A stretch of DNA of 64,000 bases from Apostichopus japonicus (taxonomy: Eukaryota; Echinodermata; Holothuroidea; Aspidochirotida; Stichopodidae), in contig NC_092581.1 in assembly GCF_037975245.1 (NCBI RefSeq), forward strand, positions 8,027,501-8,091,500. The letters are read 5' to 3'. Position numbers and translations under genes: made by a program. Below, piece after piece: positions 9,101 to 48,550 of the stretch; the first letter of the stretch is position 1; every line of letters begins with the position of its first letter. Below the pieces are notes generated by a model. The model had not been told where the DNA came from. It worked only from the letters and a program-made list of their open reading frames with translations, and did not search any database.

Positions 9101-9142
9101 GAATATGCAAATATGGATTTTGATGATGAGTCCTATGTTTAG
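184..9142 (+). CDS. ARHGAP20: ARHGAP20-like Rho GTPase-activating protein, 5' end outside window
   Basis: Eight exons seen: 184-271, 3203-3350, 3717-3896, 4431-4542, 4847-5069, 5674-5783, 6401-6572 and 6908-9142. All have AG/GT borders and the frame is continuous through every junction, giving about 1,089 residues. Exons 1-3 look like the Ras-associating (RA) region. Exons 5-7 form the RhoGAP domain: it opens LFGKSLSVIC, has the arginine finger in GPFTHGIFRKSAN and the later NLAICTSPSMIWPP helix. The 2.2-kb last exon encodes a long Ser-rich, low-complexity tail ending in an acidic DFDDESYV. Family knowledge: such proteins speed GTP hydrolysis by Rho-type GTPases, and ARHGAP20 acts downstream of Rap1. 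The usual N-terminal PH domain is not in view and should lie to the left. Orthology to ARHGAP20 rather than a close paralogue is inferred from domain order and RhoGAP wording. Confidence 0.88.
543..2290. mobile_element. hAT-like non-autonomous DNA transposon in the ARHGAP20-like intron
   Basis: Terminal inverted repeats start TAGTGTTCGACCGAT at both ends. The flanks carry an identical 8-bp direct repeat, ATATACTG, at 535-542 and 2291-2298, which is the expected target-site duplication of a hAT element. Both ends are built from short AATCGG/CCGATT repeats reading in opposite directions, so each end can fold on itself. The 1.75-kb body has no convincing transposase; the only open stretch (628-855) is short and includes terminal repeat. 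It lies wholly in the intron between the first two visible exons. Confidence 0.85.
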
Positions 9143-16800: not shown

Positions 16801-17563
16801 AAGCATGAGATCTCAAAATAACCGATGTGTAAATGCAACTTGAAACGCACGGGAAGTCTCTTTTCCGAGGATCTATGGGTATTTTTTGGCAAAAACAAAT
16901 CGCCCAGCTCATATCAAAGTGGGCTAGCTTGTGAATCGGATTTAAGGGAAAGTTCCCATACAAAAACATATTGTTTTCCGTATTGCGCATTTCATTTCCT
17001 CCGCACGAAAGAGATTTGCGGAAAGGTACATCTTGATTGTTGTTAATGCTTGTTTCTTTCATTTGCGCGTAATGAATAAGAAAAGCGTATCGCTGGCGTG
17101 TGTTATATAGTGTCCTGTAAATTCCCGATGTCCTTTCCGCTTAACGAAAGACTGTTTCGACCCCCACCCACATCCTCCACCACCACCGGTAAACCGGAAT
17201 TCTTCACCCCTCATGCCAACCTGAATTTCGATTCGTGATCGAATATCTCTTTCCCACAATAGCTTTGTAATACTTCCGAAGAGCCCCGTGAACTATGATA
17301 TACTCTCGCAAGTTCTAAAAAACGACTTATATCAAGTTTACAGGAGGCATTGCAAATTAACAACTTGGAAAGTACCTTTCAGTTTCGCGGAACTAGTCCC
17401 GCAAATAGTGTTGAGTCTGTGTAGGTCCTATGCACTATAGCATATCCATAACATACCACGAGACGCAAGGTCATGGTAGGAACAACATTAAGCTGATTCT
17501 TCAAAGTGACATATCGAAGCTCCAATATTAAATTTGCTAATTCTTTAAAGAACCGTGATCGAA
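13862..17563. other. Intergenic upstream of NudC
   Basis: Mostly AT-rich without a convincing exon. Two spots look like transposon debris: 15720-15785 starts CAGTAGCGTAACTCC and contains a GGGGCCCC hairpin, and 16626-16665 has a GGGCGTTCGCAGAG start followed by G/C runs. No matching second end was found for either. The last few hundred bases should hold the NudC promoter, but no TATA box or clear initiator stands out. Confidence 0.45.
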
Positions 17564-28069: not shown

Positions 28070-31000
28070 TTAGCACCCTCCCCAGGTCAATCTCTGCACA
28101 TGGTCTGTCTTCTGCTTGGTCGGTTTAATAAAGCCCAAGAACTGGAGCTCTGATACAGCTCTAATAAATCTTGCACTGAGCATCCAAGGTTAAGGTCATT
28201 TACACCATCATTCTAGGCTCATCCTACTCTCAGAATATTATGTATGCAAATATGTACATGCTGTCATAAACAGCCATTTGGAAAGTGAGACTGTCTAATA
28301 GGAATAAACAGAGTAAAATAACAATAGGAGAGCTATTTTCAAGTGAACTGCTTCCATTTGAAGTAGCCATATTACTGGTAACTACAAACCATGACTTAAA
28401 AATGTTTGTAACACTGTTGATTAAAGTATGGCAATCTTCAGAATTCCATGGTGGTATTAGTGTACACTCTAGCACTATTCTATGCACATATACAACAATT
28501 TAGTAATACGGTAATGAACATATATTTGTACCATGGGAGATGTTGGATACAAAACCAGCTGCTTTATAAAGTTTCTCTGTACCCTATGTTCATATAGCCT
28601 ATGTTCAAACACCCTATGTTCATATACCCTTCATATAGCCTATGTTCCCAGGCGCGTATCCAGGATTTTCTAACCCGGGGGGCGCGAATTACCATCTAAG
28701 CGGAGCGCCACCATCGGTTGGCGCGGAGCGTACAAGAAAATTTCTGGTTTTGATACCCCCCAGATCACCGGAAATGGCACTTCTCGGGCTTGAAAATGAC
28801 CAACCAGATGTACACTTTTGCCTGAGAACCAAGTATTTCCCAAAAGTTTTTTTCCATCCATAACCTTTTTGAAGATTGTAACCAGTCACTCATCATGTTC
28901 GACCTCATTGCATGTCCTATGGATCATTGCTTTTGTAGGTGATTCTACGTCACGGCCCACAATATCTGACAGCCCCACTTTTCAAGGTTTTAAGCCCAAT
29001 ATTTCATGGGCTTAATTCACTTCAAAACATACCCATAATGTTGCACAAAATTCAATCTATGGACAACCAATATAGAAAAAATGTTGGTCAGGAAATTTTC
29101 GAAAATTCCGACACAGTTAATTTATTGGTGTAGAAATATTGCAACCTCTTATAATGGCTATTATAAAACTTGGTTTCGGAAATGAAAAATAGCAGATATT
29201 TCCGATATCAGGTATATCGAAACCGAAGACTACACACATAGGCTTAGGTCCCGTAGAAGGCGGGGGCCGCAGCCCCCCCCCGCCGCAACCAATTTTTTTC
29301 CCATTTTTTTCGGGCACCTACTGAAAGAAAAATAAATAGCAATGAAAAGCTTAAAAATGATCTCCTTGGTAATTAAAATAAAGTTGTAAGCTTGGCCGAC
29401 ATTACTACTGTAAAAGAGAGTTTTGACATAAATGGATCTGTATGCTTTTTCTCCATCTACATAAGACATTTGGTTGTTTACATTAGCATCCGGCGGTATA
29501 CTGTGCAACTTTCACGGACCGTGCGGTACACGATGCCATGCAATGTAATGACCGATGCTTGCTTATATGATATTGGCATCGATGTGTTGAACGCGCGCTA
29601 TGCGCGCGAAAAATTTCGGCTCTTTTTCGGGCAAGTCGTTACAGCCCCAAATCCAATTGGGCTCCTACGCCTTGAATACACACATAGACAGTTTTTTGAG
29701 GCTGTTCATCGTGGAACATGCATTTCAATGCTCACTGACACTGGCGGATCCAGGGCCTTTGTTTGGGAGGGGCCAAAGTGGCATTAGAGTGATATGGGGA
29801 GGGGTCAAAGGGGAGGGGGTGCCCCCCTCCCCTATGGAAAATTTTCTATTTCTGAATGCCCTCAGATGTAATTTGGTGCGACAAAAGTGTACAATGGTGA
29901 TGTTAATTTACTTCTAAAAAAAATGTTTCCCAGGTGTAATTTTCTAAAATATTTATAAAACAAAGTTGAGATCATCTTTCTCAAGCAATTTGATTTCTCA
30001 TAGGTTATAAATTTCTTACAACCAGCCTGTAACTGCAAAATGGTGTTAAACTGTAAATCCTCATGCTCATACATTTACATAGCTCCCAACTCTTGAGAAG
30101 GCAAATGCTGGTCCATGCCACGAATCGCCGTCCTGGGGGAGGGGTATAAGGGGAGGGGGTGTCCCCCTCCCCTTTTGAATTTTTTCGGAATCATGGTGAT
30201 GCCTACATGTAAAATGGTGGCACTTAGAAAGGCTTTTGTCACCCAAAATTTTCTGAGAAATATGCATTTTTTTGTGTGTAACATCAATAAATTGAATAGT
30301 AGGTGATAATTCATTCTTTCCCGTGGCATGAAAATGTTCGCTGCTCGCCCCAATGAAAGAAATATAGGCTAATTTGAGGTTCAAATGATGCTGTAAAGGA
30401 GGTTTTATACTCTATTATGCTAAATGCTAAAGAAATGATGGTTGCTAAGTCAAGATATGATGCAATTTTTTTGATGTATACTTGACAATTACAATGCGGT
30501 TTTTCGGACGCTTGTGCGGGTCAGCGGGTTTGGGTGTTAGAATGCGGGTCTAATTCCCGCGAATTGCGGGTCAGTTGGGAGCTCTGCATTTAATTTTAAA
30601 CCAGAAAACGAAAAGGTTTACACTAGTCTACCACTGCTATTCCTCTCGATTGTTTTTAATTTCCAATCATATGATTTAGCGGATGTTCGGAAACACTTTT
30701 TGGCTCACCTTTGGGGGGGGGCCATGGCCCCCCTTGGCCCCCCTTGGATCCGCCAGTGCTCACTGATATGATGTTATATCTGCTCTTTGCTTTACAAATT
30801 CGAACAGGCGTGTAGCGAGTAATTGCCAAGGGAGGGGCGAAGCCTGTAGGCAAACTATCTAAGCGAAGCGCCACCATGAGTTGGCGCGAAGCGTACAAGA
30901 ACAATTTTGGCCGAAAATGCCTCCCAGGTCGCTGGAAATGACACTTCCCAGGCCTTGTAAGTTGCATCTAAGCATTGTCTATTTTGAAATTACTAGCGAT

Positions 31001-34000
31001 GTCTTAAAGAAAATTTGCTCGGGGGGGGGGGGAGGGGGCGGTCGCCCCCTTTCCGAAATGCGTCATGTTCCCCGACGACTCGGTCGAGTTCAAGACCAGC
31101 CACAGTTGGTTCCATATAGCACAATTGTACTACAATTTGTACAATTGTTTAAGGCGTTCATACAGACACACGCATCATGATAGACCATATATAGTATTTA
31201 TATAGATACATTAGTGAGAGAGGAAAAATGGAAACGTCAAAAATGGAATTGTCGGTGTAAGGGGTAGGGTGAGGCGCACACCCCTCCGTAATCCTTGATC
31301 TGTCACTGGCTACCCTGTGTATATAATAGGGATCAGCGCTTTAACTATGACTGTTCCTCTTTCTCTTCCCGAGGTCTTGGCTCTCTTCTACTCCCTCCTT
31401 TTCTCCTTCTTCTCTCTTTTTTCTTTTTCTTTTCCCTTCCTTTCTCTCCTCCTTTTCTTTTTCCCCCCTCCTTTTCCCTTTTTTTCTTCTCTTTTTTTTT
31501 CTCTCCTCTTTTCCTTACCCGGGGGGCGCGCGCCCCCAACGCCCCCCCCTGGATACGCACCTGGTTCCTACATCCTTCTCTGTTCATATACTCTTCATAC
31601 ACCCTATGTTCATAAACCCTTCATATAGCCTATGTTAATATAACCTATGTTCATATATCCTATGTTCATATACCATATTATCATATAGCCTAAGTTCATA
31701 TACCCTTTGTTCATATATCCTTCTCTGTTCATATACCATATGTTCATATATCCTTCATATCATTGCAATAAACCTCAAAACTTCAACAATAGTTTCCTTC
31801 ATATATTCTTTCTGTTACAAATACAATAGGTATAATTGTTATGATCAAGGATACTGTAATTCAGGGTCGATATCAGTTTCTTTATTTGTCTTTTCTTTGC
31901 CTTTTCCTCCTTTTCCTTTCTTTTGTTTTTCTTCCTCCTCATGTGGAAGTTGTCCTGTAACCACGGTAACAAATGCCTAACAAAAGGAGTGAGCATAAGA
32001 ATTACAAAATCATTATTCTTATAGTAGAAAGGAATAAGCAATTAATCAGTTTTTGTATAAAGATTTTTCACAATAAATTAAGACCAGCCATCAATGGTTG
32101 TCTCAAATATATCTGGAGATGTAATCACTGACAAATTAAACTTTACCATTCAAAAAGCTTTTTGCCCAAAATATCTTAGCATTACATGATCCCTAAAGCA
32201 TAAAGCATACAGATTTCATGGCTTTTCCATTATCAAATCATCACTTTAAGTGGAAGTTTCTTTTCATCAGGGATTGAATTTGGATGTCTTGGGCTGTAAT
32301 TCGAATATTTATATTTAAATTTGTTTTGCAATCAATTAATTTGATAAGTAAATGTGAATGCTAATGGAATGTTAGCTCAGTGGTTAACGCCTATGCCTTT
32401 CAATCATAAGGTCCCGAGTTCGAGTCACTCCAAGATTAATGTATGTCGTCCAGTTACAGAGTTGTTGACAATTCATAATCATGGACGTTAAATATGAATC
32501 TAAGAGACTGACTTCGGTCAGCTTGTGGCTTTGCTAAGCCAATGATGGCTTCTTCACGAGTTACTGCTTGCAGGAGGATCTACATACAATACATACATAC
32601 ATACATACATTTATATAGAGTATTAAGTACATCTCATAAAGCAGTTATAAGTCTGAAGAACCTCACCTGAAGCCAGTCATAGAGGTTAATGAGTCTTCCG
32701 TACTCGAGATGTAATTTATAGACAATACAAATATCAGGCAGAGAGCCAGTCACACTGTCTGCTTCTATCTTACAAGCTTCATTCTGTGGAATGGAATCCA
32801 AGATGTTAGGAGCTTGTAAATATATTGTAGTCAATAATCACCATAGGTGCTTCTTGATATTAATTATCTTAAGCAAGACATTCAACGTTATTCCAATTTA
32901 TTTAAAGCCTAGGCTTGGTACAAATCCCCTCCTCAAAAATACAGAATATATAAACAATTTGGCTAATTTTCTAATATGACACTGATTCTGCCAGGAATCA
33001 ATCACTTCAGTTCAGAATCTATTCAGAATCACAGTGTATGTACTTAAATGAGGGGCAGCCATCACCATCCATCCTTGCTAGACAACTGCACACAGCTGTA
33101 CTACAACAAACAGTCATTGACAGAGTCAATTACATCCAGATCATTTGGAGAGGTCTTGAAGGCCACCAGATTGCTCTAGGTGTGGTTCAGGCAACTGAGA
33201 GCAGTGGCAATTTTCTTAAAACTTTTGAATTCAAAACTGCTAGAATATCATAGATTATTTAAGTTACTGTTGGGTCGTCTTCCACTAACCTGTAAATAAA
33301 CGTACGGATTGGTCAATGCAGTCTGGATGGCAGCTCTTGGGGATGCGTGAAGATGTTGACGAACCTCGTACACATTGTCAAAGTAAAACACCTCATGCAG
33401 TGTCAAGGAATGAGGTATAATCAGTATCTTTCTGAGAATGGAAAAAGTGAGAAAATATATGAGAAATTTAATGCTGTTAAATGTAAATCACATGAAAATA
33501 AAGGTGTTATTGAAAATTAACATACTAATCTGATTACATTAACTTAGATTATATCACTAGTTATGCATTCTTGTTATACTAAAACTTCTCACTCTTTAAA
33601 CACGGCTATTCACCTGAAAACTTTCTGGAGGTATTCAATGACATCTTGTCTCACCACTTCATACTGAGTCAGTTCTTTCTTTTTCTTGGCATCAACCATC
33701 AGTTTCTGTTGCAGGGAGTGCAGAGTGACTTTACCAGTGGTTGCAGTATTGCTAGGATGTTGTTCTTCTGTAGATTCCTCTTTACCATTGACTGCTTGTG
33801 TTTTTGCAGGCAAATGAGCTGACTCTAATTGAGGTATTGATAAAAGATTTCTTTCAATATAATCAACACCAGAGAAACAATACAAAAAATGTATGGTAAT
33901 GAATGATGACAACATGGGATAGGGGTGAGAGGGGATGGATGGGGGGGTGGTGGATTTTATGCCAGTTGGTGTTTACCTTTAAAAGGAGTTATAGAGATGG

Positions 34001-37000
34001 GGAAAAGAACCAAAAGCATGGTTGACTTTGACAAGAAAACCACAAAAATAAAAGCATATTGATAAGTAATTAAATATAATGATCAACAACTGTACAGAAA
34101 TTTTAGTAATGAAAGTGAGCTGAGTAGATTGTTGAAATCATTTCATATGCGTAGTATCAGCTATAGCATGTTACAATTACCAATATGTATTTCATTGCAA
34201 TGCCAACCCTCTTCTGTTTCAAAGTAACTTAATATTAAAACTCATTCAATCTTAGAAAAGGAAAGCTAAAACTTAGGAAAATGCTCAGTCTGCAATATTT
34301 CATAACAATAAATTATATAAGCCATAGATTGTAATTCACTTTTTGATTAATTAAGAAAGATATGTATGCTATATATGGGACTTTGACATATCAACTGCCA
34401 CCTACATACCTCCCCATCTACCCCCCCCCCCACCCTTTTCTTGAGCAACTCACAAACTTCAGGAAATCAATGCCCCAAGAAAAGATTGCTCTGCAAGGAC
34501 CAAAACCAAATGCTTACCAGCAAGACCTTCGATGGTTTGTTTATATTCCACCAATTCTGAGCAGACCTCCTCCAATATACCTTCTTCCTTGTCCAGAATC
34601 CTGATGCACGCCTCTAAATGACAGATTAATTCTTCCCGAGCAAATAGCCTGCAATCGAAACAAATAAAACATATCTATGTTTGATGGACACAGCCAGCTT
34701 GAGAACTTTGCAAAGAGTGAAGGACTTTTGGTGAACTTTATTTTCATTCGATACATGTTTTAATGAAAGACATTGCAAATAACAAAGTTGTACTCAACCC
34801 CATTATTCAATTGTGAAAGACATAAGTACTTACAAGAAACTTGATATATAATCAAATATGACAAAGAAGGTGAAATGAAATCCTTATATTTGTAAGGCTA
34901 CTGTGGAGGAAATATGAGAGGAAGAAAATAGAAGCAGAGGGGAATAGGAAGTGAAAGGGTAGAGAGGAAGGGTATAGAAAGGAAGGGAATAGGAGTGTAG
35001 GGACTGGGAGGTTAAGGAAATACATGGGGGATACATGAGGGAATAGGGAGTGGTGAATTAGAAAGTTGTAATTTCACATGTCAACAATGGTTAAAGAGTG
35101 AATAAGCTTTTGATACCTGACAAGACTGATGGCTTGTTTGTACCCCTCTTGTTCTACAATGTTCCCTTCTAGAGTCATAGCATACAACTCTCTTAGTTTC
35201 TTCCCCAGTGGACTCTGTGGAAGCTCATTTGTGATTTGATGCAGACATAGCAGCACAGGGTAGAAGTTACTGTGGTACTCATGAATAACCTCAAGAAGGT
35301 CCTGGATAACACCCTGGAATCAATCAAATTATTCAATCAATCAATCAAATAGTCAGACATCTGATGGGGCATATGAATGATCATAGCACTGATATTACTG
35401 CAAGAAACCTGACTACATGATTCAAGCACTGAAGGGCAACATCACCACACAATGAAATGAGCTGATGGGGCATATGAATGATAATAACATTGACACTACT
35501 GTAAGAAAACTGACTACATGATTCATGCACTGAAGGGCAACATCACCACACAATGAAATGAGCTGATGGGGCATATGAATGATAATAACATTGACACTAC
35601 TGTAAGAAAACTGACTACATGATTCATGCACTGAAGGGCAACTTCACCACACAATGAAATGAGCTGATGGGGCATATGAATGATAATAACATTGACACTA
35701 CTGTAAGAAAACTGACTACATGATTCATGCACTGAAGGGCAACATCACCACACAATGAAATGAGCTGATGGGGCATATGAATGATAATAACATTGACACT
35801 ACTGTAAGAAAACTGACTACATGATTCATGCACTGAAGGGCAACATCACCACACAATGAAATGAGCTGATGGGGCATATGAATGATAATAACATTGACAC
35901 TACTGTAAGAAAACTGACTACATGATTCATGCACTGAAGGGCAACATCACCACACAATGAAATGAGCTGATGGGGCATATGAATGATAATAACATTGACA
36001 CTACTGTAAGAAAACTGACTACATGATTCATGCACTGAAGGGCAACATCACCACACAATGAAATGAGCTGATGGGGCATATGAATGATAATAACATTGAC
36101 ACTACTGTAAGAAAACTGACTACATGATTCATGCACTGAAGGGCAACATCACCACACAATGAAATGAGCTGATGGGGCATATGAATGATAATAACATTGA
36201 CACTACTGCAAGAAAACTGACTACATGATTCATGCACTGAAGGGCAACATCACCACACAATGAAATATGACAGCTGATGGTGCATATGAATGATAATAAC
36301 ATTGACATTACTGCAAGAAGACTGACTACATGATTCATGCACTGAAGGGCAACATCACCACACAATGAAATATGACAGCTGATGGTGCATATGAATGATA
36401 ATAACATTGACACTACTGCAAGAAGACTGACTACATGATTCATGCACTGAAGGGCAACATCACCACACAATGAAATATGAAGGTAGTTATTCCACAACTT
36501 TGCATGTAGACCTAATTATAGACTGAATTTAGAATGTACTAAATACTTCAAGTCTCAATTTCTTTTTTTTCCATTTTAAGAGCGGGAAGGGGACCCCAGA
36601 TCAAGTTTGTGCAACGTATAAGGCAGCTTCCATTACTGGAACATATTATATAACCAACATTGATCACTGTTTTCAATTTTCTCCTGATTCCGGAACCTTG
36701 TTACAGAACAGATACCCATCAATTCTAAAACGTCATGTGATATTTAAATGCCTTTAATACCTTTGTGTGTTTGTCATCCAATAAGAGGGCCCGCTGTTCC
36801 TTTGGTGCCTGATTTTCAACATATCTGTTCAAAATGGAGACATCAGAAACTCCTTTAAAAAGTGCATCAAAAGTGCATACCCATAATTGTTACTTGATAA
36901 AGTCTATGCAGCATTTGACTGTAGACCTCTGTAACATATTTTTAAGTTTCAAAAGACCAGAAACCTGAAGTTACAAGTAATTGAAAATTATTTTAGAGTG

Positions 37001-40000
37001 AACACATGTATAGCAGTATGGAAGATATGATCATAAATTTATCATAAACTCTTTATGATCATACAATGCTGTATACACTGACAAATACAGTTAAGCTCCA
37101 CATTCTGAAAATCACCAGTTGCATATCAATTGTTCAATTTAATTCCATTTCCAATATTTTGCCTTCACATTGTAAGCTTTCAAATATATATGTAACAAAA
37201 CAACCTACATCAAAAAAACAAAAAAAATTGAGATATTTTAACATCTTAACTTTAATATAGGATGACTTTACAAAAACAAGAGAATTCACTTTGATATGTT
37301 TCAATCTATTAAATATCATTTCAATACCAGTGTTAAATTTGCAGAAATAACCAGGGAGATTCAAACAATCAAATTACTTATCTAGCACACAGAGAAAACA
37401 GAATATCTGGGTCAGCATCTCACAAGCAACAGAAACATCAAGAGCATCAACAACATAACATATGCGGATTACACATAAATGTATACAAAGCATTATATAT
37501 TTCTCATCAACCTTAGATATACACTTGTTTATATGAAGCTATTAGAAAGGCTACTAAAACATATTAAAGCAATCGTTTAACATATAACAATTAGGCTTGG
37601 ACCAGGGAGCTGACATCACCATCAAATATGCTCTGAGGGAACAAATAATTAATTGTGAGTAGCTTTTTAATAGTCTTGATATAGACTGATGACCCACTCC
37701 CAAAACTTTGCTAGTTTGTTGGACTATGAGATATGCACACATCAAGTACTGTACATATGATGGACATAAACTTATAAACCAACCTTCTGAATGACTTAAG
37801 TTGTCTGCATAGTTCTAGTTGATCATGTGACATTGCCTTCACACAGTCTGCAGCCTCTTCAAAGTTACAGCACAAGAAACTCAATGGTTGATTGAAGAAG
37901 TGCTCAATCATGCTAAACTAAAACCAAACAAAACAATCAATTAGTTATACAAATGTAATCAATTACATTTATAATAATGAGTGTATTGTTGTATCCCACA
38001 CATCCCTTCTTCTACTGCCTATCCTTTGTCTTTAATTAATTTTGCTAATGAAGGTCTGACATTTTTGTGTAGAATTAGTTTTATCATTTCATTCTTGTTG
38101 TCAGCTACCATTATACCATTGCATTACCAGCATTGATATTACTGGCAATAAAGCCTATTTGAATAGTAAAGCATCTTATTACGGATAAATACAAAGTTTT
38201 GCTATAAGGTTTGAAGTTACATTTTATCCATATCAATAGCAGTATAACAGCGTTTACAACCTTGTAGTATTACTGCTTGAACCTTCTTATAGTAAATAAG
38301 TCTAAACTTTTAAATGACAATTAATTTCTACATTGGGAGAAGAAGAAGATACTGGACTAAAGTTTGACATAGAGGAAACAAACTTCAACAAGAAAGCTTT
38401 ACTTGTATATATTTGAAAAAAAAAGAATGAAGTTTCTTACTTTTATGCCTTTCACAAAATTGGTGAATGAAAAGTCATGGTAAAGAAAGAGATCCAGTAA
38501 TAGCAGGAAAACTTTGGCCCCAAGCTTGAAGGGATACTTAGGCGTAAGGAAAATCTGCGGGAAAAAAATAAATAATGTACACCAAAACAAGGATTTATTA
38601 CAATTACAAAACTAAGGACGGATTTCCATTGCTGAACCACTGATATAAATCTAAATTTCTAATGGAAAGGGCTATTCAGAAAGACGGTACAAATATACTT
38701 GTTATGTTTGAAAACAACCTCCTCCCTCCCTCATCCAGAGCTGCCAATCTTAAAAGACAAGATTTAAACCAGCAGTTTCACAGAAGAGTAAGCATGCCTC
38801 TGTATTGGTACATTACATTTATAAATTCTGGCATGGTTAGACTAACACAGTTATTCAAATCAAGACAATCAGATAAGTATGACTTTAAGGGGGACTCTAA
38901 AGGTCAAATAAGGTCAGGTTGCAATAAGTCTGATGTTGCAGCCATTTCTTTGCAAGGGAGATGGTACTGGTTAAGGTCATTGGAATCGCATATTTTCCGA
39001 GAGCAAACCATACACCTGTACATTTGTTATGATCTGCCGTACAAAATACGGAAAACACGTACTACTTCCCATCTCTGCTTACCCCTCCCAACTACAAAAT
39101 TCTAATTAACATTTGCACATGGTTTAAGGAGATGTGTTAAAATCAACACAAATGGAAGAAATGGTTTTACCTTCGAAATAAGCTGATTGAGGGAAATGGA
39201 GGAATGTGGTGCCTGGAACTTTTCAATGCTCAACAAGGATGAAATGGACTGAGGTAAGATTCTATGAATGGCTGTCACAGCTGTTGCTATGCCAAACACA
39301 AAGGTCAAAGGTAACCGAGATAAGTACTGGCTGTGCGGAGAAAAATAATTGGAAAATGTTAAGAGACTGATGGGAGAATGCAGAGAATATGATGAAACCT
39401 CACAAAAGGGTTTACCTGAAAGTAACATATATTTATGATTCCTCAAAAACAAGAAATTTCTATGAAACACACCAAAAAACCTTCTCAGAGTTATTGTTGT
39501 AACCACAGGTTAAACAAGGGGCAACTATCAGCATGACCATTGGGAATAGAAATTAGACAAGTAGTTCTTGATTTGTCAAGAGCTTTTAAACACTCAGGGG
39601 AGGGAATAGGTGGAGCAGCTACTGCAGCTGAAACAATGAATTTTCATTATTTCGTTCAGAGAAAACCTGTTTGTCTTTTGTTTGTAAGCTAAGAAATATA
39701 AACAATAACATTTATTCCTGTTGACCTATTCATGCCAATATGTAAGCCCCCTGCCACTGAATAATTGTTTCGTATAGAATATTAATAAAACCTGGACTGT
39801 AGAAGTAATATATCGGCTCAACATCAACTATGCAGGTCCACAGTATCTACAACCTTCTTTTTCCAATTGGTTTTACAAACTAAACTAAAAGTCGGTTTTG
39901 AAGCTAGTCCTCACTTTCCTATTATCAGATCTACACTGTGTGCATCACAATATAGTACCCACCTTGCAATCTTAATGAAATCCTGAAGGATGTGAGGAAC

Positions 40001-43000
40001 GAACCCTTCAATGTCTTCAAAGATAATAATAAGGCTAGGGGATCCTAAGGCAGCACTCTCTTCATCTGATTGCTTGTCTTTAGTACGAGCTACTGGCTTC
40101 AGGATGTAAAGGACAAGTGAAGGAAAACATTGATAAACTACAGGATAATTACACAGATATACATATCATATTGTATTCAACATAAATACAGTTAGGCGAA
40201 TATTAATTGTGATTGGATAGGGTGCATGGTAATTTATTATCATTTCAATGCTTGTCAAAACTTTAATAGTTAGGCGAGTATTAATTGTGATTGGATAGGG
40301 TGCATGGTAATTTATTATCGTTTCAATGCTCGTCAAAACTTTAATACAGTTAGGCAAGTATTAATTGTGATTGGATAGGGTGCATGGTAATTTATTATTA
40401 TTTCAATGCTCGTCAATATTATCTCCTATTACACATAAAACAATAACAGAGCTATTTACAAAGACACCATTCCAATGGAGGTTATGTTACCTTGAAGGTA
40501 TCTTCATACCAGGAAGAGAGTACTTGAAAAGTACAAGGAATCTTCTTAACATCAACAGTAGTCTCACCACCTTCCTCCTCCTCAGAAGACTAGTGAGTGA
40601 AATCAAAAGGTTTCAAGATATTAGATTACTGGAACTATTAAATTGTCCCCTGAATGTTCTTCTGTAACCAACCTAAAAACACAGGTGGCTATAGCATTGC
40701 TCACATACTAAATAAACAATTGGTATGGTGGGATGGACTAGGTTGGCCAACCAACAGGCTAATTTGTTTTATACAGAAGTAGATCTAGACAATATTGATG
40801 CAGCTGCTATGAAGTACACTTTCTTGCTCAAACATATCCTTCCTGCAATGGCAAGTGTGTCCTAAAATTGTATATGATAATTAGGATAAGCTTCCTGTTA
40901 AATGTGTTATAAACATATAATTTAAAATTCTGACCTAAACAAGAGTTTTTCAAAATATTAATCATTCATAAAATATCAAGTTACTTTAAAAATACATTAA
41001 AATACAATATGTTGACATTACAAAACAATATGGTGTGAACACTCAGTTCTACACATCTACGTATTACAGTCCTCTTTTCTGACCAAATCCCTGATAGAAT
41101 TACCATAGCATCTTCTTCTCCAATGAACTGACCAACCACAGATGACATGAGGGATTTGAGTGAGGAAGACTGTTTGCCAGTCAGTCTGATCACATGTGGG
41201 GAGATGTCCATCTTGAACATTGATACAAGAGACTTAAATATGGAGGAATGATCTGGAACATTAACACCTGTAAAGGAAGAAGGTTCTGAAATCAAGTCAA
41301 GTACATCTAAGAAATTATTACATAGACTTCAAACAGTCTACACTTATGACAGTGCTGTTACTGAAACAGGGCAAAGTTCACCCATCAATAACTTGTTAAT
41401 ATCTCAGTCAATGGCAAGAAATTGAAAATTGGATTTATTTCCTACAAATCTTTAACCAAACTAGATCTTTGAGATGACGTGAATTATGACAAAATGTATT
41501 ATGGCACTTATAATATACTGACAGATGGAATGCAAAATTAAGATAATATTTGAAAACAAGAAAAACTGATGAAACCACTTTAGTCTTGTTTTAATGGAGG
41601 ATAGTGCATCTGAAACAAAGAAATTATTCAATTGCAGAGGGGTGGAGGGGGGGGGGGTGAGAAGGTGTACATACAGAGGTATATTTTGGTAAATAACCAA
41701 ATATCAAAATTACAGTCACTCATGGTACAGCAGCACCACTTTGAGGAAAACTTTAATAAACTTCAAATATCAGAAATTAGTTATTTCAAGAAACAAACAA
41801 TTAGCACTTATGTCATTGTTTAAAGGTGATATATACTGCACCTGTCACTAGTGCAGCTGTTGGTAACTCCAATCTCCCTCCTGTATGGCTGGTACCATCA
41901 TCACTGATTCTGCTGCTGTGACAGTTCTTCATAAACTTCATCAAGTCATCAAGCAGTTTTCTATTGGTGTCATACTTTAGGCTCTATAATACAAACAGGA
42001 AGAATCAATTCTTATAATATATAACAAAGACTGGGTAACTTTTGTAGCAGTGTGATGAACTAATACAGGTCTTCATATACTTTGCTGTCTTTAATGACCA
42101 AACTATTCCCTTGGTAAACAGAAGCACTGCATCTATAGGGTTAATGTCCCCCTACACCCACCTCCTATTCTCCAAACCAAACCCTTTACCACATTCCATA
42201 TAAGACAAATTGATCTCAGGGCATCAATCATACCAACCTCTATATCTTCCTCCATTTCTTCCCAGAGATCAGTATAAGTTTCATTTCTAAGCTGAGAACA
42301 CTTCTGGTGTTCCTTGGGATGTTTCTGAAAATAATCTCCTGAAAAATGATAAAGAAAACAAAATCCTCTGTTTGTGAAAATGTTTGAAACAGTGATCTTT
42401 TCCTATTGTATTGCTCAATTGTGGGGGACAAAATTCCTTCCTTCTTTCGTGTGACTCACTTTTGTGACAAGTTCCTTAGGCTATATATGATGATTTCTAT
42501 TTGTGAGGAGATGGCAATACATTCAAACATGATGTTTATTTCTAGTTCATACACACATACTGTTTAGGTACTTCTGTACTACATACAGTATGGTAAGGAT
42601 GGAAATTAAAGGAACATTGACATCTGAACCACTTGTTCTTCACAGGATCTAAACGACAATACTCTGCCAAGTAGATCATGATCACATGGACAAAACTAAA
42701 TAAAATATTACAAACCTAGCAGATAAAAGTCCCAACCACAGAAAGAATTCATAAACTGAAAATGACAGATTGAAAATCATGTTCATACTGTAAGTGATAT
42801 TAAAATCAATATCAGCTTCTTATAATTTAATGATAAAAAGATTGATAACATCAAATCTTTTCATTTTTAGAAGAGAGCAAACCACAAGAGTTTACCTGAA
42901 TTTAGGATACATTTTCTTTTCTTACTGGTTGGTTTGAAGACAAATACACCCTAGAAGAGAGAGCAAGAGAGAGACAAAACAAAAATAAACTTCAAATATG

Positions 43001-43358
43001 TACAAAAGAAAACCATATATTGATAAAAAACATTATAATAATAAATTGTAAATATTCAGAGCTCTTTTGACATTCAACAACCTACTTTGCCTAAGCTAGT
43101 TGCCGAACCTCCTTCCCTTGTTAAACTGGGTCTAAGAATGTACAACTTAGAAATTAGAATCTAACCAAAATCCTATCAATTTCGCAGAAACAGTACCTCG
43201 AGATAAACCTTCACTTATAAGTAATAACATGTGATTTTGTACCGCGGTTTAGTTTAAAATAAGGATACTTGCATCTGAAAAAGCCGCAGATTTTGCCTAC
43301 ATAACACAGAATTTACCTTTGATACAGACGTTGTAAGAGTGTCATCCTCTGGATCCAT
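28070..43358 (-). CDS. ORC3: Origin recognition complex subunit 3, complete, 18 exons
   Basis: Exons in transcript order: 43317-43358, 42896-42950, 42238-42338, 41842-41983, 41104-41267, 40491-40589, 39963-40096, 39171-39330, 38441-38554, 37784-37917, 36761-36824, 35117-35313, 34518-34648, 33614-33824, 33290-33431, 32667-32783, 31855-31976 and 28070-28175. Phases match at every junction, giving 744 aa (human 711). ORC3 landmarks: [106 protein letters not shown] and the C-terminal [19 protein letters not shown]. Family knowledge: with ORC1, 2, 4, 5 and 6 it marks replication origins and helps load MCM; ORC3 has an AAA+-like core without ATPase function plus winged-helix parts. Oddities: a Glu- then Lys/Gly-rich linker in exon 17, a weak donor (ACA|GTATCC) there, and a 3.7-kb last intron filled with nested transposons. 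Confidence 0.95.
28560..28648 (+). repeat. Degenerate CCTATGTTCATATA minisatellite, left part
   Basis: Short repeats of CCTATGTTCATATA-type units inside the last ORC3 intron. The same array resumes at 31564 after the transposon nest, showing that the nest inserted into it. Confidence 0.8.
28694..28800 (+). repeat. GCGGAGCG subterminal module, copy 1
   Basis: Starts ATCTAAGCGGAGCGCC, with GCGGAGCG repeated directly on both sides of a GCGCCACC/GGTTGGCGC hairpin, followed by a conserved TACAAGAAAA and a CCGGAAATGGCACTTCT-like segment. It lies 45 bp inside the left end of the 28649-31563 element and reads inward. Confidence 0.85.
29739..30758. mobile_element. hAT-like element with exact 8-bp target duplication, nested
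   Basis: Ends are CACTGGCGGATCCAGGG and, from the right, CACTGGCGGATCCAAGGG. Flanking CTCACTGA at 29731-29738 and 30759-30766 is an exact 8-bp duplication. It is inserted in the outer 28649-31563 element and itself contains the 30078-30586 element. GC-rich GGGGAGGGGGTG hairpin sequence follows the left end. No coding capacity. Confidence 0.88.
30078..30586. mobile_element. Third-level hAT-like element, ends CAxAGCTCCCAACT
   Basis: Left end CATAGCTCCCAACTC and inward-reading right end CAGAGCTCCCAACTG match except for one early base and the last. Flanks share an exact 6-bp CATTTA at 30072-30077 and 30587-30592; beyond six bases they differ, so the duplication is either 6 bp or a decayed 8 bp. 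It is the youngest visible layer of this nest. Confidence 0.7.
30857..30985 (+). repeat. GCGGAGCG subterminal module, copy 2 (GCGAAGCG variant)
   Basis: Same layout as the other copies, but both direct repeats read GCGAAGCG. It continues into AATGCCTCCCAGGTCGC, CACTTCCCAGGCCTTG and GTTGCATCTAAGCATT, the longest downstream match in the set. A CAGGCGTGTAGCGAG sequence 52 bp upstream (30805) resembles an element end, but its partner was not found. Confidence 0.85.
31355..31515 (+). repeat. Polypyrimidine tract
   Basis: About 160 bp of almost pure C/T near the right end of the 28649-31563 element. It generates long low-complexity open frames on both strands that have no sign of being genes. Confidence 0.9.
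31564..31760 (+). repeat. Degenerate CCTATGTTCATATA minisatellite, right part
   Basis: Continuation of the array at 28560-28648; units of roughly 15-17 bp with frequent point changes. Confidence 0.8.
32366..32612 (+). mobile_element. tRNA-derived SINE in an ORC3 intron
   Basis: The head resembles a tRNA: A-box TAGCTCAGTGGTTAACGC, an anticodon-like loop CTTTCAA (TTC, Glu-like) and B-box GAGTTCGAGTCACTCC. A roughly 110-bp unrelated body follows and the copy ends in a (CATA)n tail near 32582-32612. Stem mismatches and the attached body argue against a working tRNA. It is antisense to ORC3, between exons 16 and 17. Confidence 0.75.
35361..36478 (+). repeat. 101-bp satellite array in an ORC3 intron, about 11 copies
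   Basis: Units start CTGATGGGGCATATGAATGA and run 101 bp head to tail; central copies are nearly identical, while the first copy and the last two differ (the last ones are about 106 bp with an extra ATGACAG-type insert). It lies between ORC3 exons 11 and 12. The period is not a multiple of three and no conserved protein results. Confidence 0.95.
40191..40417 (+). repeat. 79-bp unit repeated three times in an ORC3 intron
   Basis: Copies start at 40191, 40269 and 40349 with GTTAGGCGAATATTAATTGT or close variants, and contain GATTGGATAGGGTGCATGG. Located between exons 6 and 7. Confidence 0.9.
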
Positions 43359-43788
43359 TTGTGTTTCTTTCTGTGCTTCTGAAATAATTATCTTCGAAAA
43401 ATTTGAGTCGCCACTAAATTTGTTGGTGGTGGCATACTCCTATTAGAGTCTATATCAATCCGACCGGATGTTCTCCTATTTCGGGAAAAGTGCCAAATGC
43501 CTTAGCAGAACATCTTTTTTAATATGTTATCAATCAGATTTTTTTGTGGCTCGTGTGTTGAATAGCATGAATAAAAGGATATGTGGTGCAAAAATTGAGG
43601 CAAATTTAACCCCTCTAACCCTTCCAGGAGCAGCGAACGAAAATTGTTTACTACTGAGTGAAGAGGTTTGTTTACAAGTGACGAAAACTTTAGGCTATCT
43701 GATAGCAAAAAATCTTCTCGGATCCTGATACGGAAAATTTATGGTGCCATGAAAGGTCAACTTGTCAGCTATCCAGTGATGGGGTAGT
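43359..43788. promoter_or_regulatory. Region 5' of the ORC3 start codon, probable promoter
   Basis: About 430 bp between the ORC3 ATG and the first transposon boundary. No TATA box is evident. Assignment is by position only; a non-coding first exon could also lie here. Confidence 0.35.
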
Positions 43789-44310
43789 CAGGGGCGGATC
43801 CAGGGGGGGGGGGGGCCCGGGGGGCCCGGGCCCCCCCTTTTTGAAAATCCTGATTTTTTTTTTTACCGCGTTTGAGGGAAAGGGCCCCATGCGTGATCAG
43901 TGGTGTAGCTACGGGGGGCCTGGGGGACCGAGGCCCCCCATGAAATAGGCTGGCCCCCCACTGGGAATTGGGTAAAAAAATGTTGTAAAAAAATATAAAA
44001 ATAAGTGCGATTCACTTATATTTTTTGTTCAATAATTTGGGAAATAGAGTTACACAATTATCGTCCGCATCTGGCAGAATAAGAAAATACAATATCTGTA
44101 GTAATCATGAGAATGGTCACACAGCATGGCATGGCAATGGTCGATGCAACGATATACCACGAACCTTGTTGTGCTGCGCGATATCGATATCTGCTGAAAA
44201 TATGTTCAGCGTTTCCACCTAGCGCAACAATCTATCAAAAGATTGGCTCCGTTTGTACAGAGCCGAGGTATCAGGTTTTCATATATTGCCTCGAGTCAAA
44301 TGAATATATG

Positions 44311-45037
44311 CAGGCGCGGATCCAGGGGGGTCCAGGGGGTCCGGACCCCCCTGCTCTTGGCCAAAATAAAGAGAAAAGAAAAAAAGAGAGAGAAAAAATA
44401 ATTAAATTAAACGCCAATTTTAAACATGTAGGACGGCAGAAAAGCGGTTATCCTCACAAGTCATCCAGGTGTGTCTTTTCCGTCAAATGAACTATAGTGT
44501 GCACGCGTGCTACACGTGCCAAAAATGCCTAACGATCTCAATTTTCAGACCGAACAGTTTCAAAATTGAGATGGTGTTCGAATTTTTTTGGGCGGTGAGG
44601 TTACACTCGGGTTACAGAGCGGTAGGTTGTTAGGATGCGCTAACGAATTTTTCATGAGCAAACCCCTCACCCTTCCAGAATCCTGGATCCGGCCCTGCAT
44701 CAAACAGTGGTGACGGAACGGGAGGGGATTGGGGGCTAAAGGCATTATGATATTTGTATCATCTCAACTCATCTGATATGTAATACCATATTTCATAGAT
44801 TGTTTTTTCTCATCAATTGAGAAATTGCAGACATGAGATCCATATTTTCAGGCTAGGTACATGCTGCTCAGAATACTCGGGAAGTGCCGTTTCCGGCCAT
44901 CTGGGGTGTTTGTAAAGCCAAAAATGTTCTTGTATGCTCCGCGCCAACCGATGATGGCGCTCCGCTTAGATAGTCTTACGTTCAGGCGCGGCTGGACCAG
45001 TCAGACCCCCCTGTCACAAATCTTGCATCCGCCCCTG
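44311..45037. mobile_element. Third-level hAT5-like element with 5-bp target duplication
   Basis: Left end CAGGCGCGGATCCAGG and inward-reading right end CAGGGGCGGATGCAAG (13 of 16). Flanks are exact ATATG at 44306-44310 and 45038-45042. An extra right-type end (GGATCCGGCCCTG, ending 44697) lies inside and has no matching flank, so part of the interior is probably a fragment of yet another copy. Confidence 0.65.
44870..44973 (-). repeat. GCGGAGCG subterminal module, copy 3
   Basis: Minus-strand copy: CTAAGCGGAGCGCCATCATC followed by GGTTGGCGCGGAGC, then the CCGGAAACGGCACTTCC-like segment. Its start is about 65 bp inside the right end of the 44311-45037 element and reads inward. Confidence 0.85.
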
Positions 45038-45342
45038 ATATGTCATTGAATATTCCACAAAACAACTTCTTTATGCCCACGAAACTGTCGAAACATGATT
45101 TTCACTACTGGTAGAGATATAAAACATTGGGAATTCTGAAATTCCTGCAAACATGCGGCTGTACCTGTTCAATACTCACTACTGCATCGCCTTAAAAAAT
45201 GATGAGTGGAAATAGTTTCTCCAGGACCGTATCGTATCGTGGGTATCGAGTGCGTCTGATATACGAACGTACGTAGTACTTACGTCTATGATGATATGCA
45301 CTGTACTGTACTGATAAAAACATAGGTGAATTTCACTCCATG

Positions 45343-45504
45343 GGAGTGATCACTGAGCACATTCCAGTATAAAAGTGAATTTCCAATCCATTGGAGTAAA
45401 TCTTAACTCCTAATAGAGTTATATTCACTCATATTAGGAGTGAGGGTTTACTCCAATAGAGTTAAATTTCACTCTTAATTTGAAGTGCGCCGAGTGATCA
45501 CTCC
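45343..45504. repeat. Imperfect palindromic (foldback) repeat rich in ACTCC
   Basis: Arms begin GGAGTGATCACT at both ends (reading inward) and remain similar for about 75 bp, sharing ATTGGAGTAAA and ACTCCTAATA blocks. Looks like a small foldback MITE; flanking duplication not resolved because the surrounding sequence is also rich in ACTCC. Confidence 0.6.
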
Positions 45505-45957
45505 AATGGAATGATATCCACTCATTTGTTTTAAGAGTGTTGATAGATTTATGAAGAAGAAATTTACATACCAATACATGTTATCGGTAATCGATTGGCA
45601 CAAAAACCCAGATTCTGATGACAGCTGCCTCAAGAAATCCAATAAATGGCCTAATTAGCACCGAGCCACCAATGTGGACCATTACCGAAACATCGATGCG
45701 TGTTAGTCTTCCATCCCCTTCCTCTAATGCTATTTAAGTCCACATGTGGGCATATCCTGCAAACCTACCGGTAGCATACAGGGGTTTGAGTTGGGAGAAA
45801 GGCCTTGACAGCTTGAAACGACAAATGATGTCAACTTCCCTTAAATTAAAAGTCTGGCTGAGTTGGCAAGGCCAGTCAGCATGAAAGAGAAAAAACTTTT
45901 TTGCATTTCTGTCATCAAAGTTGCACATCTTTTTGGTTGCTATTTTGCCTCACAGGT

Positions 45958-46044
45958 GCCATCTCCTGCGATCTGGGGGTGCTGAAATCTCAATTTTTTC
46001 TCTGTACGCTCCGCGCCAACCAAGGTGGCGCTCCGCTTAGATAG
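45958..46044 (-). repeat. GCGGAGCG subterminal module, copy 4
   Basis: Minus-strand copy with both direct repeats intact (GCGGAGCG twice) and hairpin GCGCCACC..GGTTGGCGC with a changed loop. It starts about 80 bp inside the right end of the 43898-46123 element, reading inward. Confidence 0.85.
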
Positions 46045-46670
46045 TACCCTCCGCCCCCCCCCCCACAAGAACGAACAGCCCCCCATGGCCCCCCACTCAA
46101 AAAATCTTAGCTACGCCACTGTGCGTGTAATTTTTTGTAAAATAAATTTGCAAAAAGAGTACACTATCATTCTGATAAAGTGAAGGTGAGAGGGGCACTC
46201 TGACTGCATCAATAGTCTCCATCTGGAAGGGGGCATCCAAGATGAAATGGCCTGGAGTAGCCTGGTAAAAAGTAGTTTGCATCACCACCTACTCCCCAAA
46301 GACGTAAATCCAACTCATTGCTTAAAATTGCAAATATATGCCCGGCAAACCATGAATACATGATTTATTGGAAATAAATTTTACTCCAAACTTTCACGAA
46401 AAGTAGCACCAGATTGCACCGAGGACCTCCATATTTTGTGAAATTTTCCAAAGGGGAGGGGGCACCCACTCCCCTTAGACCCCTCCCCCAGGACTACGAT
46501 TAGGCATTTTCCATCTGGGCCCCCCCTTCGGCGAAATCCTGGATCCGCCACTGGTAGTGTTAGCTAGTGAGAACTTCTATGTAGACTTAGAGTCCACATT
46601 ACTTTTGTGATTTAGTGTGTAATTCAATGGGGCTTGTAACGTACGCTACCGAGTGTAGGGGCCACAGACG

Positions 46671-46895
46671 TAAAGGCATTGAAGACTCGCCCCAAACCGC
46701 GTGCCGTGCTCTGAAAAAGTTCACTTTCCGTTGCTTGCAAGTGAAGTTTTCTTCTTGTCGCTACAAAATGCAGACAGTAATGAAACGTGATACCTTGTTA
46801 TATTTTATCTAGACCTGAGATGTCCATCGCTGCTATGTACACTGTGTTGTGGGTATTGACCGTAGCTAGGCCTATATATTAACTGTACACTAGAG
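46671..46895. mobile_element. Partial diverged copy of the 13.5-kb TTAA element
   Basis: Matches 13468-13690 along about 225 bp, including AAAGGCATTGAAGACTC, TTTCCGTTGCTTGCAAGTGA and TGTGTTGTGGGTATTGACCG. It ends before the part that carries the palindrome in the first copy. Confidence 0.8.
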
Positions 46896-47000
46896 TTAAA
46901 GGATGGTTCAGTTGTCATACATGTTTATGTCATAGGCGTACGGGACCATTTCAGTTTGGGGGGGGCAGAACTTTTTGTGCCCGAAAGTTCCCGTGACACT

Positions 47001-47118
47001 ATCTAAGCGGAGCGCCACCATCGGTTGGCGCGTAGCGTACAAGAAAATTTTTGGCAAACAATGCCTCTCAGATTGCCGGAAACGGCACTTCTGAGGCCTT
47101 GCAAGTTGCATCTAAGCA
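47001..47118 (+). repeat. GCGGAGCG subterminal module, copy 5
   Basis: ATCTAAGCGGAGCGCC start, hairpin GCGCCACC/GGTTGGCGC, second direct repeat altered to GCGTAGCG, then GCCTCTCAGATTGCCGGAAA and GTTGCATCTAAGCATT. The downstream half matches copy 2 closely although the host elements have different ends. Confidence 0.85.
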
Positions 47119-47500
47119 TTCTTTATTTTATAATCTCACGTTTTAGAAATTTACACTTCCCCAAAAATTTGGTAAATTAGAAAAAGAAAAAATGGTAACA
47201 TCACTTTGAAGGGGAAAAATGGGACAGTATATTTTTTAAGCTCCTATTTAGTTACCTTATTTATTATTTAAACACAGTACTCAGCTACCTCAAGAAAAAC
47301 ATATACATTGTTCAACGACACGTAGGCGGGATAATGTCGCTGTGTCGGGTGAGACTGCAGTTTGTCTCACCAAAAAAGTATAAAATATAACAAAGAATAT
47401 GATAAACCTGTACTTCTAGGCTTGTAGGCACCCCCCCCTCCCCACCATCCATGAAAAAGAAAATGTTTCTTATATACACTCATGTTGGGGATGTCCAGGT

Positions 47501-48145
47501 CAAGGGCGGCGGAAGCACTTTTAATCTGGGGGGGTCAACGACATCAAAGGGCACTTTGCAGAAATTCGATTGGACCGATGCAACCTTATAATTAGTACCC
47601 TTTATAACTCTTATATTGTATTATCTTTTTTGTGTATACACATCACTCCATCAACCGCCCCCCCCCCCCCTAAAGGAAAATATGCATACTAGCACTGCAA
47701 TATCCAATGCGCAAATTGGGAAACAAGGAACAAGTTTTCTTTTGCGACAAAATGAGGTGAAATCATGCTAGTTGCTAATGTAGGAATCTTCCGAATTAGA
47801 GTTTTTTTCTTGTTAATATCTTAACAATTTTTTTCCATTCGAAATAGCTTTGAGTTTGACCCACAGAAATTCATTAAAAGTCACGGGCTTAGCCAGGATT
47901 TGCAAAGTTGTATGCACGACTATCTGAGCGGAGCGCCACCATCAGTTGGCGCGGAGCGTACTAGAAAATTGTTGGTTTTACAACCCCCTCATATGGCCGG
48001 AAACGGCCCTCCCCGAGTGTTCATTCTGGTTCCCTGGCCTCTTGCTAACTTGAGGCACCTCAAATTATGCAAAAAAAGGCACATTTTTAACCTGAGGAAA
48101 AGAGGGGGCACGTGCCCCCTGTGCCCCCCGGTTCCGCCGCCCTTG
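47501..48145. mobile_element. Nested hAT-like element, ends CAAGGGCGGCGGAA
   Basis: Left end CAAGGGCGGCGGAAGC and inward-reading right end CAAGGGCGGCGGAACC. Exact 8-bp duplication GTCCAGGT at 47493-47500 and 48146-48153. Inserted inside the 46931-48542 element. A CACGGGCTTAGCCAGGATTT sequence at 47882 looks like the end of a further fragment inside it. Confidence 0.88.
47922..48020 (+). repeat. GCGGAGCG subterminal module, copy 6
   Basis: ATCTGAGCGGAGCGCC start, hairpin GCGCCACC/AGTTGGCGC, second GCGGAGCG intact, then CATATGGCCGGAAACGGCCC. It lies about 40 bp downstream of the end-like sequence at 47882 and reads away from it. Confidence 0.85.
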
Positions 48146-48343
48146 GTCCAGGTATACAATTGACTAGTTAGAAAAAAAAATGATTGTGCAAAAAGCGTGG
48201 TAGCCGAGATGAACTGCGCTTACGGTGGTGTTACACGGAAATATTCGGGCTTCATGATGCTAAATAAAGAAAATCATGGAATTGTCGGGCAAAAATTTGA
48301 AAAAGATTCGGGCAAGCTACTGCATATTTATATATATATATAT

Positions 48344-48489
48344 ATTTCCAGAGGACAAGAAATTCGGGCAAAAGTCCTGAAAAATTCGGGCAGCCTAAGA
48401 GGAGAAAAAAATGTATATATATTTTTTTCTCCTTTTAGGCTGCCCGAATTTTTCAGGACTTTTGCCCGAATTTCTTGTCCTCTGGAAAT
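48344..48489. repeat. Long inverted repeat, about 66-bp arms
   Basis: Left arm (48344-48410) and right arm (48423-48489) are near-perfect reverse complements containing AATTCGGGCAAAAGTCCTGA and AGCCTAAGAGGAGAAAAAAA; a TA-rich loop separates them. It would form a stable hairpin in RNA or single-stranded DNA. It is near the right end of the 46931-48542 element. Confidence 0.9.
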
Positions 48490-48550
48490 TTGGGGGGGGG
48501 GCAGTCTGCCCCCCTGCCCCCCCCCCGCCTCGTACGCCTATGGTTTATGT

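Follow-up and report, generated by a model that had tools for sequence, protein, structure and literature searches.

The module copies of the window and their host elements

The window, the whole 64,000-nucleotide stretch of Apostichopus japonicus DNA analysed here (contig NC_092581.1, forward-strand positions 8,027,501 to 8,091,500), holds six copies of a conserved module which sit in nested elements. These are listed below with our own numbers for element families (F) and for loci (L); the inner limits of all six copies are approximate.

28649..31563, plus strand: composite F1 element, ends CAGGCGCGTATCCAGG and CAGGTGCGTATCCAGG, exact 5-bp duplication GTTCC
28691..28790, plus strand: module copy 1, 42 bp inside the F1 end
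29739..30758, no strand given: nested hAT-type element, end CACTGGCGGATCCAGG, 8-bp duplication CTCACTGA, splitting the F1 element
30854..30952, plus strand: module copy 2, inside F1 by a fossil end at 30805 (CAGGCGTGTAGCG)
43789..46553, minus strand: outer element with L057-type (5-bp) ends and duplication GTAGT, F10 and F14 being nested within it
43898..46121, minus strand: F10 element, CAGTGGYGTAGCTA ends, imperfect 8-bp duplication TGCGTGAT/TGCGTGTA (6 of 8)
44311..45037, minus strand: F14 element, exact 5-bp duplication CATAT/ATATG, interior by the module resembling F3
44878..44974, minus strand: module copy 3, a profile match
45949..46045, minus strand: module copy 4, a profile match
46931..48542, plus strand: F6 element, CATAGGCGTACG ends, exact 8-bp duplication GTTTATGT, interior about 90% like F15
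46998..47094, plus strand: module copy 5, 67 bp inside the F6 end
47501..48145, plus strand: F18 element within F6, CAAGGGCGGCGGAAG ends, 8-bp duplication GTCCAGGT, with the module internal
47882..48015, plus strand: fragment of an F5-type end, holding module copy 6, whose ACTATC is at 47919

A profile of the six copies, run with nhmmer, matched the window at 46993, 28687, 30850 and 47915 on the plus strand and at 44979 and 46047 on the minus strand, all with E ≤ 1.7e-29, values which prove alignment only as the six copies are self-matches. One other match, weak and partial, was found at 16892 (E 0.0005), and the same profile found no module inside the nested element at 29739..30758. These matches, together with the abundance of the module core genome-wide (below), confirm that all six copies named in an earlier, sequence-only reading of this DNA are real. 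That reading had set every copy near an element end; the copies at 30854 and 47919, however, are away from the active ends of their hosts and each lie by a fossil end inside a larger element, and neither a duplication nor a partner end for the first of these fossil ends was found in the related copy L003. Its 5-bp duplications, GTTCC and ATATG, are both exact, as is its 8-bp duplication GTTTATGT, but the “TGCGTG” that it had also counted as 8-bp represents 6 of 8 positions of TGCGTGAT/TGCGTGTA and is imperfect.

Pfam searches with five frames of the window gave no transposase. An open frame at 55759-57285 matches glycosyltransferase family 92 (GT92, E 1.9e-23), a minus-strand open frame at 63015-63965 matches a reverse transcriptase (RVT_1, E 4.5e-10) and a 766-aa stop-to-stop frame at 6842-9142 has no Pfam match at E ≤ 0.01. 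Repeats of other kinds are also present: at 35260-36480 a 101-105 bp unit forms a tandem array of about 11 copies, with 89-98% identity to the reference copy; at 40190-40425 one of 78-80 bp is present in three tandem copies, with 87-96% identity to its reference; and there is an imperfect inverted repeat at 45316-45531 with two 100-base arms (75% complementary), a 16-base spacer and a sequence rich in ACTCC/GGAGT.

Extent, conservation and placement of the module

A 34-nt core pattern (30 fixed bases) had 17,218 matches with up to 2 mismatches in the 671.6-Mb genome, compared to 0 for the reversed-core control pattern. For closer comparison 56 loci were picked from the first 100 zero-mismatch core places listed, all on contig 1, so that intact cores are over-represented; together with the window these loci yielded 90 module matches at E ≤ 0.001. 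Addition of the transposase loci L057-L098 brought this to 104 matches at E ≤ 1e-6, of which 94 were compared and 10, being partial, were dropped. The 94 modules fell into 20 upstream groups, with 90 of them in groups that have a CA-type end; no such end was recognisable in three groups (four modules, in L027, L022, L029 and L025 at 583). The first similarity search scored 40 of 1,750 candidates and is not a census, and as the sample began from module-positive places, exchanges in which the module was lost would go unseen.

Among 18 representatives (153 pairs), mean pairwise identity was 0.75 in the module, 0.34 in the 110 bp outside it and 0.33 in the 148 bp inside it, so that the flanks are close to the 0.29 background of shuffled modules (28 pairs from 8 representatives). 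All 55 pairs among the 11 families whose ends are clear can be aligned at the module, and in 54 of them the alignment starts within 10 bp of ACTATC, F15/F2 being the sole pair without a shared outer start there. Inward, similarity stops at 80-115 bp in 44 of the 55 pairs, typically at about 93 bp; it runs longer in F1/F2, F15/F6, F14/F3, F14/F4, F16/F1 and F16/F2, reaches 116 bp in F4/F6 and F15/F4, and is shorter in F15/F7, F16/F9 and F16/F7. The common block thus has sharp limits, starts at ACTATC and is about 95-105 bp long; the single shared block described earlier stands, with its length corrected from about 110 bp.

Within the block, conservation is highest at GCGCCACCAT..GTTGGCGCG, an imperfect inverted repeat, with a second conserved block near AGAT..CCGGAAA; the quasi-palindrome GCGCCACCATNNGTTGGCGC is the module's most conserved part. 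In the F12 module (L048, 541-913) the inverted repeat is a perfect 14-bp one, TACGCTACGCGCCA / TGGCGCGTAGCGTA, compared to the imperfect form of other families, and is possibly an older form. At two places (L002 at 2427 and L018 at 855) a second, partial module follows immediately after the first and has the look of a tandem duplication.

It is very improbable that the module acts as a structured RNA or single-stranded DNA element through its predicted hairpins, one of which has a GAAA loop. One variable helix does covary above shuffles (0.308 compared to 0.156, 0 of 500), as the best of 396 scanned, and 1 of 4 folded sequences reached a z of -3.5; RNAalifold, however, gave 12 pairs with two-sided change in 0, the mean fold z over 22 sequences was -1.1 for the module strand and -1.7 for the other strand, Rfam gave 0 matches at gathering scores across window positions 28000-49000, and the F16 copy, judged by eye, is without the variable helix.

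ACTATC lies 37-94 bp (median 54) inside the CA-type end over 18 end types, a set which includes the fossil ends F1c, F5 and F13, and also F8 and F11, for which a partner end was not found. The module is within a few hundred bp of an end, with the exception of F18, which has spread with its module deep inside, 412-437 bp from one of its ends and about 210-230 bp from the opposite end; the F5 copies within F18, and 14 F1c copies, adjoin fossil ends inside larger elements. For one end type, CAGGCGCG, to which this count is confined, ACTATCTAAGCG follows 20-50 bp on and reads inward at 2,759 places genome-wide, compared to 9 with the end facing outward. As far as this check was run, distance and orientation are not the random ones that would have told against the module belonging to these ends.

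No module was found at the tip of any of 12 opposite ends, each examined over its first 260 bases. F2 has a second module about 170-260 bp in from its opposite end, and a weak match (9.1 bits) at the opposite end of F7 was discounted as the inner edge of that element's own module, since F7 measures 388 bp in all. The terminal module is confined to one end, which in elements with a transposase frame is the one on the 3' side of that frame, a one-sidedness that the earlier reading had not anticipated.

Hosts of the module differ in duplication length. Exact 8-bp duplications, which with short CA inverted ends are of hAT kind, were seen in 20 cases over eight module-bearing families (F6, four; F4, five; F2, two; F3, two plus a full element; F9, one; F7, two events; F5b, two; F16, one), the F4 case in L048 being weak evidence because it sits in a tandem repeat. 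Inexact ones matched at 7 of 8 bases in L017, L044 and L050 and at 6 of 8 in L015 and the F10 element of the window; in several copies the right end was absent from the stretch fetched. Six two-ended copies of F1 gave exact 5-bp duplications CTCTA, CTATA and GTTCC, an exact 6-bp CATTAG, a 4 of 5 match (L018) and no match (L041). F14 has the 5-bp duplication CATAT, F12 has ATTAA (three copies from one event, nested in F4; 4 of 5 in L010), and standalone F5 has ACAAA from one event (exact in L011, 4 of 5 in L020). One inward-reading module near CA-type ends, in hosts with differing ends and duplication lengths, is hence what these comparisons support, as was first proposed from the window.

Carrier transposases and mosaic elements

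Transposase loci were taken from 150 scored PF05699 matches, keeping those that were multi-copy or had long frames. An F3 element of 5,521 bp (contig C17, 7007863-7013383; L063) has the duplication AGGCTGTA on both sides and an uninterrupted 796-aa stop-to-stop frame matching, above cut-off, DUF4371 (5.1e-19) and the C-terminal hAT dimerisation domain expected of a transposase of this superfamily (Dimer_Tnp_hAT, 4e-08). With bounded ends and such a frame this element is probably autonomous. The module, found about 740 bp past the stop codon and oriented toward the gene, starts at base 48 of the end; no solved structure was found for its protein by sequence at E ≤ 0.01. The F16 element of L062/L072 is also bounded (2,148 bp, duplication GTGGAAGC) and has a partial frame only.

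Once the F3 case was seen the other transposase loci were extended downstream, and a 3'-side module behind a CA-type end, reading toward the gene, was found in 8 of 20 transposase neighbourhoods from four families: F3 (L063, L066, L078), F15 (L070), F16 (L072, L080) and F5b (L081, L082). In 6 of the 8, module and frame were assigned to one element by nearness and not by both ends, and 3' sides were searched more fully than 5' sides; no module was found in about 3 kb of upstream sequence from two F5b copies and from one F16 copy. Neighbouring elements contribute extra modules (two in L065, two more in L080, and one in L081, outside the F5b end and pointing away from the gene), L074 gave a weak match of 10 bits, and in L089 the frame has an F2-type module immediately on its 5' side, pointing away from it.

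Other hAT elements are mobile here and no module was found in them, namely L057 and L092 (5-bp) and L059, L061 and L064 (8-bp). L057 (804-aa frame, duplication ACTAT) and L092 (AATTA) join a hAT transposase to 5-bp duplications, as hAT5 elements do, and the stretches fetched for both gave no module; for the module-bearing F1, F14 and F12, 5-bp duplications were seen and no transposase of their own was found. L090, whose protein is 36% identical to that of F3, has an apparent 3' end without the module.

Transposases of carrier families are about 25-39% identical over aligned stretches (about 25-26% for F3 and F5b). In a tree of 14 rows, some partial, with long branches flagged among L091, L094 and L095 and with several “no module” rows that are elements whose ends are not known, F5b (8-bp, with module) groups with the 5-bp transposases (96/97), and the carriers as one clade were rejected (p-AU 5.4e-06). 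A single capture of the module followed by vertical descent was dropped on account of this rejection. The possibility that all hosts are one family with mis-called ends, which would have undone the earlier reading, we count as refuted and give next to no probability: the ends do have a CANNGGCG...G-run look in common, but inverted ends and exact duplications match family by family, the F3 element is bounded with its transposase frame inside, and the transposases are diverged.

Three pairs of families share a body behind different ends. The first 37 bp of F1 match the 3' terminus of L092, the 5-bp hAT without a detected module, at 32 of 37 positions without gaps, and from position 36 the F1 interior is 86% identical over 585 bp to F2, an 8-bp family whose own ends resemble those of F4 and F9. 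F6 and F15 have bodies in common from the module inward (90%, about 700 bp) and not in the 47-64 bp outside it, and F14 and F3 are 86% identical over the 165 bp that run inward from the module, with differing ends and 5- compared to 8-bp duplications. The module side of F1 scores as a 3'-type end of the 5-bp lineage (27, compared to 8-13 for 5' ends) and its other side as L057 5' type (26, compared to 11-15.5 for 3' ends); the other side of F14 is clearly 5'-type (23.5, compared to at most 14) and its module side marginally 3'-type (16 compared to 14). These mosaics fit the earlier suggestion that the module was swapped between families, and since the outer 37 bp of F1 match a 5-bp hAT and its interior the 8-bp F2, comparison of these sequences indicates that sharing across duplication lengths is at least partly the result of end replacement.

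Such exchange may also be all that there is, with the module a functionless passenger from one successful family carried about by nested insertion, abortive gap repair and end replacement. Nested or captured ends are common (F7 in F1/F3, F12 in F4, F1c in F1, F5 in F18), the families without a detected module are mobile too and F18 has its module internally, all of which is consistent with a passenger; random tracts, however, would not be expected to share an outer edge in 54 of 55 pairs or a 37-94 bp spacing over 18 end types, and wherever a bounding module was seen, in 8 of 20 neighbourhoods, it is on the 3' side, although there the 5' side was searched less. We regard the passenger explanation as unlikely but not negligibly so. 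In this connection, F3 and F5b modules are 93% identical over 105 bp, and copies within these families are 89-93% identical, a range that the value between families does not exceed, so that recency can mimic constraint.

A proposed one-sided subterminal signal and its possible readers

The explanation we favour, to which we give an even chance, is that the module is a one-sided subterminal signal for hAT transposition which is kept while the outer ends are exchanged. One-sided recognition has a precedent in the hAT element Hermes (PMC10368747). On the transposase 3' side the signal would begin 37-94 bp from the element end and read inward, and the outermost 40-60 bp, carrying the terminal repeat and hence the transposase type and duplication length, would be swapped while the module is kept as a unit. 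The mosaics display one body behind different ends, with duplication length altered in 2 of the 3 cases, a pattern suggestive of outer ends being traded between transposons around a common signal. An end may be replaced through nested insertion, gap repair or template switching, the G-run of look-alike ends offering microhomology. Copies in which the module stays 40-90 bp away from a 3'-type end would then amplify, perhaps because the module helps end recognition or assembly of the transposition complex, and its reader may be a host protein or the diverged but related zinc fingers of several transposases.

The second kind of reader, with the module as a dedicated subterminal site bound by the N-terminal zinc finger of the carriers' own transposases, is in our view decidedly unlikely. 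Tol2 has a subterminal transposase-binding site, and here the best-conserved part of the module is the quasi-palindrome; a distant relationship (23-38%) links the N-terminal regions of F3, L057 and others, and the full-length alignment of F3 to F5b reaches residue 106, which is within that region. One-sided subterminal recognition in a hAT element is known for Hermes (PMC10368747). Against such a site, the F5b N-terminal region is closer to the L057/L092 lineage, in which no module was found (32% to an L057 fragment, E 1e-8), than to F3 in spite of its near-identical module, the F3 N-terminal fragment alone has no F5b match at E ≤ 1, and the F3 relative L090 appears to end without the module. 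As the F5b N-terminus is nearer to L057 than to F3, there is no sign in these alignments of an F3-type DNA-binding domain travelling with the module, though a distant common zinc finger could be involved.

The first kind of reader, a host protein for which the module would be a family-independent “pass”, predicts that hAT elements of diverged transposase lineages and differing duplication lengths mobilise better with the module on a 3'-type end, and we consider it fairly unlikely. If it is true, the module would be repeatedly kept or acquired during end exchange and one body could switch between transposase systems.

The nearest known systems resemble this one in part. The Hermes left-end subterminal repeats (PMC10368747) are likewise non-coding, just inside the ends, recognised at one end and with a quasi-palindromic core, but they are short motifs repeated for one transposase, compared to a single block of about 100 bp found across families whose transposases have diverged. 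The hAT5 group has 5-bp duplications (Kapitonov and Jurka 2007, as cited in PMC12730594); L057 and L092 combine hAT-type proteins with such duplications, and F1 and F14 have ends of that type, but in the 5-bp elements here the module was found only in non-autonomous chimeras and not in the framed L057 and L092. We note that hAT5 elements and subterminal repeats are already known and that individual families may already stand in repeat databases.

Chimeric and nested MITEs are assembled from pieces of several families. The elements described here combine pieces of several families in the same way, but three of the joints fall on the outer edge of one conserved block, and at two of these three the duplication length changes as well. 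No description of a subterminal block of about 100 bp across hAT families, or of such end exchange, was found in the open-access literature searched, mostly as titles and abstracts, and four core strings were found in none of the open-access papers searched.

Non-autonomous elements are usually thought to be tied by their ends to one transposase. Here the bodies retain one block and change their ends, and thereby their duplication length, and CAGGCGCG ends with the module by themselves account for the 2,759 inward-reading places in the genome. Classification of such elements by ends alone and by interiors alone gives conflicting answers, and the module makes it possible to ask directly which requirements hAT transposition has besides the terminal repeat, and whether a host factor reads a sequence common to these elements.
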